From: Asaia siamensis
GTDB taxonomy: Bacteria; Pseudomonadota; Alphaproteobacteria; Acetobacterales; Acetobacteraceae
Reading direction: 5' to 3'
Assembly: GCF_014635085.1 (NCBI RefSeq)
Contig: NZ_BMCH01000007.1
Span: forward strand, 62,001 to 126,000
Length of the DNA stretch: 64,000 nucleotides
Below the pieces are notes generated by a model. It was not told where the DNA came from. It saw only the letters and a program-made list of their open reading frames with translations, and did no database searches. The position numbers were made by a program, and so were the translations under genes. Below are positions 35,599-38,127 of the stretch, one piece after another. Position 1 is the stretch's first letter; every line of letters starts with the position of its first letter.

Positions 35599-35898
35599 GA
35601 TAGAATTCCCGGTAACCTCAAGAGCTATTCGGGGGGGGTCATAGCGCAGGAAGATGCTCGGCTTCCATCATGAATGGTCGAGCCATGCGGGTTTTTGATC
35701 GTATTTCGGGATGCCCTTCCCGCGAGCGAGACATTAATGATATTTGACTGAAAATCACCCAATCGGTAAATTTCATCATTAATTTAATGAAAACTGAGTG
35801 AAATTTAATTGTAGTTCCCCGGTTAAGTTATCACATGCCGCCTTATAACAAAACTTTAACGGTTATGGCCTTAGGATGAGCGGGTCGGGGAGGCTCAA
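35599..35898. other. A+T-rich upstream region of the Hint-domain gene
   Basis: A 300-base gap between divergent genes. At 35768-35806 lie nested inverted repeats: AAATTTCA (35768-35775) with TGAAATTT (35799-35806), and TTTCAT (35771-35776) with ATGAAA (35887-... see 35787-35792). The region is A+T-rich until about 35870, and GGGGAGG lies just before the ATG at 35899. It likely holds the promoter and regulator sites of the Hint-domain gene. Confidence 0.5.
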
Positions 35899-38127
35899 AT
35901 GGCAACATCGGTGACAGTTCTCAGCGGTGGTAACTGGACTGCGACATACAAAAATGGTGCGACCTGGTATGTGAGCGGCTCAGTGTCTGCCACAGGTGCC
36001 GTAACGCTGTCGAATATCGGGACTCTCACCGTTTCCAGCGGTGCCGTCGTGTCGGGGGCAACTGTTACAGGTGGCGTCCCAACGGTTTCCGTTCTGAATG
36101 GCGGAACCATGGTCTCCTCTTACGAGCTGAACGGTTACCTGCGCGTAGCGAACGGGGGAGTGGTCTCTGGGAATACCCTCAACTCCACCGAGGTCACCCT
36201 GTCTTCAGGCGGGAGTTCGGTCAATGATCTCTTCGTCAATAGTGGATCAGGGACAGATACGAACGCCTATGTCTATGTAAGTTCGGGCGCTTCTCTGGTG
36301 GGTGCCACCATGAGTGATGGCGCTGTAGCAGGGTTGGCTCTGTCGGCATTTTCAGGTGCAACGGTGTCGGGGCTGACATTGGGTTCTGGCGCCAGTGCGT
36401 ATGTGTCTTCCGGCGCTACAGCCTCTGACATCAACACGGGTGCTGGCAGCGTTCTGTCGATGGCTACCTCTTACGGCAGTGGCAGCGCCTATGTGTATGT
36501 TCCGCCGCAGAGTGCGGTGGTTCTCAGCGGTGGAACATGGTCAGCTGTATCGATCAACAAAGTCACCTATTATGTCAGTGGCAATGTCTCTGCGACTGGT
36601 GCCGTAACCTTTTCGGCAATATCGACACTGACCATTTCAAGTGGCGCAACCGTTTCTGGCGTCACCATCAGTGGCAGTGTGGCGACAGTATCGGTCATGG
36701 GCGGTGGGACTCTGGAGAATTCTCTCCTACTCAACGGCTACGTCTCAGCCATGAGTGGCGCGACGCTTTCGAGCAATGTCCTCAATTCGAATGTTGTCTA
36801 TCTCTCATCAGGTGCGCAATCCATAAATGATACCTATGTCAATAGTGGGTCGGGGGCCGATGGGTATTCGGATGCCTATATCTATAGTGGCGCGAGTATC
36901 ATCTCTCCCTATATCGGATCGGCGGGTGCGGGCAGTTTCGTTGTGCGCGTGTCCTCTGGTGCGTCGATTACCGACCCGACATTAATTCAGAATGGCGGCC
37001 AGCTTCTGGTATCTGGCGGTACCGTAAGCACGACCGATCCGGCCCCCTGCTTTCTGGCTGGGACACTTATCGAGACCCATAAGGGGATGGTCGCGGTTGA
37101 GGATATCGAGATCGGTGACAAGGTTCTGGCCCGTGTAGGGGGAGTGACCGAGGAACGCGAGGTGATCTGGGCCGGAAAAGCATCCGCGATAATCCGGCCT
37201 GATCTGCCGAGTGATCTTTCTGGTTATCCCGTCAGGATACTGAAAGATGCTCTCGGAGAGAGCCTGCCCTTCAAGGACATGCTTATCACTTCAGAACACT
37301 GCCTTTTTCTGGATGATGCGTTCGTTCCCGTCCGCATGTTGGTCAATGGAAGCTCTATTTTCTATGATCGAACCTTCAGTGAATACGAGTATTATCACAT
37401 CGAAACAGAGCATCACTCGGTGATCATGGCTGACGGCGTCTGGAGCGAAAGCTATCTGGATACCGGCAAGCGCCAGTCTTTCCGGCAGACCGGAGCGGTG
37501 CATGTTCTGGGTGCGCGAACACTGGACTGGCATATCGCCGCCGCCGCCCAACTGAGGACTGACCGCGCGTTCGTTGAGCCGATCTTCGAGCGTGTAGTGG
37601 CCCGTGCTGCGCTTAATGATGTGCAGACCCGTGATGGCACTCAACTGGAGACGACGCTCGATCCGGACCTCTATATCGTTACAGAAGCGGGTGAGTGGAT
37701 TGGACGCAGTCGATCCAGAGACGGTCACTATGTTTTCGTTCTGCCGGACAACGCCCGTGACGTGCGTATCGTCTCCAACACAAGTCGCCCCAGTGACGCT
37801 ATTGCGCCTTATGTCGATGACAGACGGCGCCTCGGCGTTCTGGTGGGAGCGATCACGCTTTTTGACAGCTGGGAAACAGTCAATCTGCCGGACGCGCTCA
37901 ATAATGCTGGCCAGCATGGCTGGAATAATCTCGAGCCGTGCGGCAGACGCTGGACAAATGGCAATGCTGCCTTGTCTCTGCCTGAGCGCCGTCCGGGAGG
38001 GCTAACTCTTCTCGCGCTCAGGGTTGATGCTGCCGGCCCATACCTCAAGCCGCGTTTTCCGGCAGAAACCGCTTATTACGGAAGTGTCGACGACGAAGAC
38101 TATGTTCAGGCGCTGCGTCGCGCCTGA
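35899..38127 (+). CDS. Duplicated Ser/Gly-rich repeat protein with autoprocessing Hint domain
   Basis: A 742-aa protein. Residues 5-200 and 206-380 are two copies of the same Ser/Gly/Thr/Val-rich beta-strand repeat block (VLSGG-W..., YVSGSVSATGAVT, TLTVSSGA, NSGSG), like the passenger regions of autotransporters. A Hint_2 (hedgehog/intein) domain follows at about 384-520. It begins CFLAGTLIETHKGMVAVEDI and has the putative nucleophile C384, the hedgehog-type T-x-x-H motif T464-H467 (TSEH) and a later HIETEHHSV. A conserved-looking tail (about 520-742) completes it. No signal peptide is seen, so export may be non-classical. Such proteins are frequent in acetic acid bacteria; their role is unknown. 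Confidence 0.82.
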   Translation: MATSVTVLSGGNWTATYKNGATWYVSGSVSATGAVTLSNIGTLTVSSGAVVSGATVTGGVPTVSVLNGGTMVSSYELNGYLRVANGGVVSGNTLNSTEVTLSSGGSSVNDLFVNSGSGTDTNAYVYVSSGASLVGATMSDGAVAGLALSAFSGATVSGLTLGSGASAYVSSGATASDINTGAGSVLSMATSYGSGSAYVYVPPQSAVVLSGGTWSAVSINKVTYYVSGNVSATGAVTFSAISTLTISSGATVSGVTISGSVATVSVMGGGTLENSLLLNGYVSAMSGATLSSNVLNSNVVYLSSGAQSINDTYVNSGSGADGYSDAYIYSGASIISPYIGSAGAGSFVVRVSSGASITDPTLIQNGGQLLVSGGTVSTTDPAPCFLAGTLIETHKGMVAVEDIEIGDKVLARVGGVTEEREVIWAGKASAIIRPDLPSDLSGYPVRILKDALGESLPFKDMLITSEHCLFLDDAFVPVRMLVNGSSIFYDRTFSEYEYYHIETEHHSVIMADGVWSESYLDTGKRQSFRQTGAVHVLGARTLDWHIAAAAQLRTDRAFVEPIFERVVARAALNDVQTRDGTQLETTLDPDLYIVTEAGEWIGRSRSRDGHYVFVLPDNARDVRIVSNTSRPSDAIAPYVDDRRRLGVLVGAITLFDSWETVNLPDALNNAGQHGWNNLEPCGRRWTNGNAALSLPERRPGGLTLLALRVDAAGPYLKPRFPAETAYYGSVDDEDYVQALRRA

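Follow-up and report, generated by a model that had tools for sequence, protein, structure and literature searches.

The question raised by this locus is how a repeat protein that is joined to a Hint domain, and that starts without an evident signal peptide, might be processed and exported, and what the part following the Hint domain might contribute. The gene lies in a stretch of 64,000 nucleotides of the Asaia siamensis genome (contig NZ_BMCH01000007.1, positions 62,001 to 126,000), called hereafter the window.

Architecture of the precursor and its relatives

The reading frame and the length that the initial annotation had given for it both hold. As judged from sequence comparisons and structural models, the precursor is built of three parts: a passenger (residues 1–383), a B-type-BIL-like Hint domain (384–518) and a lineage-specific C-terminal domain (about 543–723, hereafter C-domain). 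The features are the following.

35887..35893, + strand: GGGGAGG ribosome-binding site, ATG five bases downstream (sequence reading)
35899..38127, + strand: precursor ORF, 742 aa, passenger, Hint and C-terminal domain (ORF call; orthologue synteny)
35917..36426, + strand: strand-loop-strand repeat block, first copy, residues 7–176 (self-alignment)
36520..37029, + strand: repeat block, second copy, residues 208–377 (self-alignment)
37048..37452, + strand: Hint domain proper, residues 384–518 (PF13403 match and structural alignment)
37048..37050, + strand: C384, predicted nucleophile, with P383-C384 as the expected scissile bond (conservation)
37288..37299, + strand: T464-S-E-H467, block B TxxH (conservation)
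37447..37452, + strand: E517-S518, at the place of the intein His-Asn (conservation; place inferred from structural alignment)
37525..38067, + strand: conserved C-terminal domain, residues 543–723, with DDRR, GW and WT.G motifs (75-row alignment, model)

Gene order is common to the orthologues in three Asaia species and is less complete in Swaminathania. The N-termini of three Asaia orthologues begin like that of the window protein, without a hydrophobic stretch, and the Swaminathania orthologue has a longer called start, with MMAVTSQ internal. No signal peptide was found in the first 45 residues of the window protein by a crude hydropathy test, in which the 11-residue maximum was 1.25, versus 1.67–2.10 in four exported-looking proteins of the window and 0.57–0.68 in two cytosolic ones. 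Crude as it is, this test agrees with the earlier remark that a signal peptide is missing. Among the relatives described below, the N-terminus was below the weakest exported control in 81 of 97 and as hydrophobic in the other 16 (two of 99 proteins, shorter than 400 aa, were dropped).

The passenger contains a tandem duplication, as had been proposed: residues 7–176 and 208–377 are 49% identical over 170 aa without a gap, and the self-alignment score of 400 is far above those of 1000 shuffles (mean 84, sd 11, maximum 131). An NCBIfam scan of the window protein returned nothing besides sub-threshold matches, in three stretches, to TIGR04415 (23.4 bits, curated cut-off 30), a strand-loop-strand repeat model named O_hepto_targRPT. 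In the passenger, Pfam gave a single row, for a GlmU hexapeptide model that did not reach its cut-off (E 0.19). Ser makes up 19% of the passenger and Gly 15%, and Cys is absent. The passenger is acidic and also rich in Thr, and is probably a solenoid.

The host genome encodes 11 Hint_2 ORFs, the window gene included, and the region following the Hint domain, taken as a query, hit exactly these 11 places at E<=1. Median pairwise identity among the paralogues was 33% for the passenger, 49% for the Hint domain and 40% for the C-terminal part. A set of 99 relatives was assembled from 88 ORFs with a full Hint domain plus C-domain, taken from the loci of the scan of named genomes described below, and the 11 own ones. 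One start-cut ORF apart, their passengers range from 32 to 948 aa and are of many sequence types. In 96 of these proteins (three were dropped, either for a passenger shorter than 100 aa or for a Cys that was not located), Cys made up 0.10% of passenger residues versus 0.79% of residues C-terminal to the catalytic Cys, and the median passenger pI was 4.2.

The C-domain gave no Pfam or NCBIfam match in the scans of the window protein. Folded alone from 75 sequences, its AlphaFold2 model reached a pLDDT of 91.0 and a pTM of 0.79, and this model shows an N-terminal helix and a strand-rich core that we read as a beta-sandwich. Compared with the PDB, the model had no Foldseek match at E<=0.001 (best E 0.06), and the best VIA-align score (Z 5.9, Hikeshi) lies within the stated noise range of that tool; because neither search gave a clear match, it was not possible to name a family for the domain. 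The DRR, GW and WT.G motifs are invariant in the alignment, which suggests a binding face. An ORF of 197 aa matching the C-domain, without Hint, was observed in Labrys (L067:11969-12562), with a complete Hint-plus-C gene lying about 0.9 kb upstream of it.

When named genomes were scanned, the top 80 of 517 matches were kept and gave 78 loci, 76 of them in acetic-acid bacteria and two in Labrys; among these best 80 matches the closest named relatives are from Asaia, and the two Labrys loci are those in which the C-domain occurs outside Acetobacteraceae. In a class-wide sample, which included five Acetobacteraceae genomes and in which at most 8 candidates were scored per genome, four genomes out of 385 contained the C-domain, each of them from Acetobacteraceae. 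Hint_2 was found in 96 of 120 sampled Acetobacteraceae genomes. By title or abstract, no functional study of these Hint proteins was present among the matches listed in the literature. A missense change in a Hint-domain protein is reported, in the portion of PMC11999647 consulted, as one of several mutations in a mutant with a higher cellulose yield, its causal role being unproven.

The Hint domain and its predicted chemistry

A search with the Hint_2 profile, which had been suggested as a check, gave a match to PF13403 at residues 383–522 (E 3.5e-33, 115.5 bits versus a cut-off of 28.4), spanning profile positions 1–146 of 147. A model of the Hint domain plus C-domain, made from 11 sequences, had a pLDDT of 77.3 and a pTM of 0.61; locally, pLDDT was around 90 for most of model residues 1–50 and for much of 1–130. 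By structural alignment, model residues 1–135 (384–518 of the precursor) resemble BIL, intein and Hedgehog structures. The BIL of C. thermocellum (2lwy) shares the top place of the structural comparison with several others (Z 12.6; 22% identity and an rmsd of 2.2 A, 116 residues), and by sequence no other PDB entry matched below 0.001 (E 8e-5 for 2lwy). Hedgehog 1at0 aligned with Z 10.6 and rmsd 2.8 A over 118 residues. 2lwy is an A-type BIL ending in His-Asn, whereas the window family ends in Glu-Ser.

The catalytic positions named in the initial annotation, C384 and the TxxH at 464–467 (here TSEH), are where it had placed them, and their loss in homologues was the observation that it had put forward as evidence against its reading. 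In the alignment of relatives, T464 and H467 were each present in 99 of 99, E517 in 99 of 99 and S518 in 97 of 99, the register of E517-S518 being inferred, as the structurally aligned range stops at model residue 135. D490, H500 and H506 were nearly or fully invariant among the 99. C384 was found in 98 of 98 rows spanning the position, rows that had been selected partly on a Cys motif. Since one scan pattern contained this motif, the count was redone on loci found with the C-domain profile, 20 in number and from three other genomes (G026, G158, G334). Eighteen of them yielded a Hint row (two, L113 and L117, are alike in their Hint start), and Cys, TxEH and Glu-Ser were present in 18 of 18. 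C384 and the TxxH are thus kept in homologues, and the sequence part of the earlier claim stands.

Some loci of this set showed signs of decay. L129 and L131, without a Hint row, are C-domain fragments with stop codons in a family member, apparently decaying copies. L115 has one stop codon within its C-domain match.

Because Cys and TxEH are conserved and Glu-Ser takes the place of His-Asn, N-terminal cleavage or transfer is plausible and intein splicing is not. Splicing was rejected on the Glu-Ser at that place (E in 99 of 99, S in 97 of 99). A Pfam scan found no homing endonuclease domain, the Hint_2 match being 140 residues long. From the sequence, N-terminal thioester chemistry is expected, and Asn cyclisation and splicing are not. 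We consider it fairly probable, on sequence and model, that the Hint domain is competent for N-terminal cleavage, and release of the repeat domain by such a cleavage is plausible.

Pro precedes C384 in the window protein, and the same holds for three of its four orthologues; across the family, Val, Ala, Pro or Thr occupies this position in 79 of 97. Pro at -1 is unfavourable for N-terminal cleavage in inteins, and it may slow cleavage at C384. Alternatively, the Hint domain may have lost its activity and act beside the passenger as a structural or chaperone-like part. The Pro here and in those three orthologues speaks for this reading, which is unlikely, given that the catalytic Cys, Thr and His are invariant while other parts of the protein vary widely.

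Cleavage by an active Hint domain is the preferred reading, and B-type BILs offer its closest precedent. In the parts of PMC7765530 that were available, they are described as having no C-terminal motif, N-terminal cleavage, an atypical C-terminal reaction and hypervariable host proteins. The window family shares with them the Hint fold, the N-terminal Cys, the TxxH, the lack of His-Asn and hypervariable flanks; unlike them, it adds a C-domain of about 180 residues and has repeat-rich members tied to Aah/TibC. By analogy, an atypical C-terminal cleavage may also occur. The protein could be a plain B-type BIL, in which N-terminal hydrolysis frees variable passengers, leaving the C-domain on the Hint as nothing more than a part for export or retention. 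The conserved Cys and TxxH, together with the missing splicing motif and the hypervariable context known from B-type BILs in those same parts of PMC7765530, speak for this explanation, which by itself gives no reason for one domain of about 180 residues after every own Hint; we hold it to be a serious candidate at a little under an even chance.

A second Hint_2 group was noticed near TibC genes, in which Cys and the block B His are kept and Ser-Pro-x-His replaces Thr-x-x-His. This variant was present in 8 of 15 TibC-near Hint ORFs (loci L162, L166, L169, L175, L176 and L178). Several of the group have a short tail replacing the C-domain, and L178 has a partial C-domain match.

Proposed glycosylation and export of the passengers

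In AIDA-I and TibA, Ser residues of the passengers are heptosylated by AAH/TibC, according to the sections of PMC4358343 at hand. Strand-loop-strand Ser/Gly repeats and transferases of the same NCBIfam family are common to these systems and the host genome. The window protein differs from AIDA-I and TibA in having neither a signal peptide by hydropathy nor a barrel, with Hint plus C-domain instead.

Three genes of the host genome match TIGR04414 (Aah/TibC) at more than 540 bits each, and for two of them the distance to the nearer of two Hint paralogues is 1.7 and 2.8 kb; the window itself had no TIGR04414 or HlyD match over cut-off. All 12 TIGR04415 matches of the host genome (E<=0.01) fell inside Hint ORFs, where two paralogues pass the cut-off on single stretches and a third with its neighbours. 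Among 120 genomes of the family, 31 had TIGR04414 over cut-off and all 31 also had Hint_2 (Fisher p 3e-4, uncorrected for phylogeny); these 31 also strongly matched the HlyD of the host.

Proximity was examined in 40 TibC regions, which together hold 48 of the 50 matches over cut-off in other genomes; a TibC ORF was called in 38 of them and the other two gave none. A Hint ORF lay within 5 kb of TibC in 12 of the 38 regions, versus 1.45 expected (Poisson p 5e-8) from rounded genome sizes if Hint genes are evenly spread, and no Hint ORF lay within this distance in the remaining 26. In six regions the Hint and TibC ORFs overlap or are 1–4 bases apart. Thirteen of 15 TibC-near Hint ORFs were repeat-rich (L194, with its Hint ORF in pieces, was excluded), versus 24 of the 93 proteins left for comparison once six TibC-near ones had been taken out of the 99 relatives.

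Given this proximity, the richness in repeats, the TIGR04415 matches and the precedent of AIDA-I and TibA, repeat passengers of the Hint proteins are likely targets of Aah/TibC transferases. As for the window passenger, its repeats suggest that it may well be glycosylated too, a view that we place just short of probable. Repeat-rich ORFs without a Hint match also occur beside TibC (1914 aa at L161, 609 aa at L166), and could be Hint-free targets.

How such a passenger leaves the cell was considered next to the secretion genes of the host. An autotransporter barrel (PF03797) was not found in the host genome by a search that was positive in the E. coli and Caulobacter controls, and the Pfam scan of the window protein revealed no beta-barrel translocator. 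Classical autotransporter export was accordingly rejected for this genome.

One type I adaptor (HlyD) was over cut-off in the host genome, in an operon of the order ABC-HlyD-Sel1-GT2/TPR-unknown-GT4. In 40 family regions chosen by HlyD, some of them cut by contig ends, the ABC gene was present in 40, Sel1 in 39, GT2/TPR in 37, the unknown gene in 35 and GT4 in 34. HlyD matched at E<=1e-30 in 93 of 120 family genomes. Hint and HlyD occurred together in 82 genomes, Hint without HlyD in 14, HlyD without Hint in 11, and neither in 13 (Fisher p 1.3e-4), an association that phylogeny could explain. Near the type I operon, a Hint ORF was found in 1 of the 40 regions and TibC in none of the 40; in a further case (G436, L185) TibC directly adjoins the operon. 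Seven genes were scanned at the type I locus of the host, of which none resembles a repeat or RTX substrate, and the Pfam scan of the window protein gave no RTX match. The own operon lies outside the window (G000:C3:356-369 kb, L201), and includes two glycosyltransferases, Sel1 and a 306-aa protein.

The acidic pI, the low Cys content and the start unlike a signal peptide would fit type I export, as supportive traits read from the sequences. Judged by gene neighbourhood the case for this route is weak; it is the weakest step of the model, and we regard type I secretion of the passenger as possible but doubtful.

In the model that we propose, the passenger, synthesised without a signal peptide, would receive O-linked sugars in the cytoplasm from heptosyltransferases of the Aah/TibC type. 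It would then be exported, possibly via the type I secretion system of which the family usually has a single one. The Hint domain would perform an N-to-S acyl shift at C384, assisted by T464 and H467, and resolution of the thioester by water or another nucleophile would part the passenger from the Hint domain and C-domain. The Pro before C384, the lack of TIGR04414 and HlyD matches over cut-off on the window and the sub-threshold TIGR04415 score of the window protein speak against this model. Taken as a whole, with a glycosylated passenger, type I export and Hint cleavage at C384, we see this model as evenly balanced between right and wrong.

A lipid-type gene cluster and the meaning of the family

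In nine regions (that of the own genome and eight others), a fatty-acyl-AMP-ligase-like gene adjoins TibC. Seven of the nine contain a reducing PKS (KS-AT-DH-ER-KR-ACP), for which the nearest NCBIfam model was of the mycobacterial Pks2 type, with a score far below its cut-off; in G466 and G392, the stretch examined stops before the expected place of the PKS. One to three Hint-plus-C genes lie beside a second ligase in 7 of the 9 regions, and no Hint gene was seen on either side of the G416 and G499 clusters. The own cluster (G000:C1:193-212 kb, L013) is situated outside the window and contains two Hint paralogues, two TibC genes, acyl ligases and the reducing PKS. Nine of the 11 own Hint genes, that of the window included, lie outside the PKS/ligase cluster.

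PKS clusters of the beta group, accompanied by acyl ligases, O-heptosyltransferases and, for Asaia, hint-domain proteins, have already been described (PMC8776678), so that the neighbourhood of Hint, heptosyltransferase and PKS genes is not new. Those clusters and ours have the PKS, the acyl ligases, an O-heptosyltransferase and the Asaia hint proteins in common, whereas the window gene is located elsewhere. In the passages of PMC8776678 that were accessible, they are treated as metabolite clusters, with no role proposed for Hint and no link drawn between Hint, repeats and glycosylation.

The comparison with Hedgehog bears on what this cluster might mean. The window protein and the Hog part of Hedgehog (1at0) share the Hint fold, an extra region after it and the lack of Asn-type cleavage, but a Pfam scan of the window protein showed no Hedge signalling domain. 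The position of the C-domain is analogous to that of the adduct-recognition region. The C-domain is much larger than the sterol recognition region of Hedgehog.

By extension, the C-domain could be an adduct-recognition region through which a lipid or sugar-lipid is joined to the C-terminus of the passenger, as an outer-membrane anchor. A conserved domain following Hint in 11 of 11 paralogues, paralogues of the same layout in the lipid-type cluster in 7 of 9 cassettes, and the lack of a His-Asn for intein-type C-terminal cleavage all agree with it. Against it, no nucleophile or sterol-like ligand was identified, the C-domain is without a clear structural relative, the clusters of two genomes are without a Hint gene while 9 of 11 own Hint genes lie outside the cluster, and the tail of the other Hint_2 group in the family is not the same and is often short. 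We consider this quite unlikely. The more specific form, that Hint and C-domain pass heptosylated passengers to a lipid or glycolipid nucleophile as in Hedgehog, is an analogy that we judge very unlikely; the nucleophile in some genomes would be the product of the linked reducing PKS/acyl-ligase cluster, and the outcome would be C-terminally lipidated surface glycoproteins made without a signal peptide or an autotransporter barrel.

Returning to cleavage, the description that suits the window protein best is that of a Hint_2 precursor resembling B-type BILs, in which the passenger is exchangeable and probably glycosylated and the C-domain is lineage-specific. The initial annotation was right in its Hint assignment and on the conservation of the catalytic residues; it had overlooked the C-domain, the ten paralogues and the likely link to glycosylation and glycosyltransferases.

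The frame offered here is that of a conserved, predicted self-processing cassette that serves exchangeable, probably glycosylated passengers and carries a domain for which no family is assigned. Should the Hint domain attach something to the passenger, Hedgehog lipidation would have a parallel in prokaryotes; cleavage alone would still account for a large family of surface-protein candidates.
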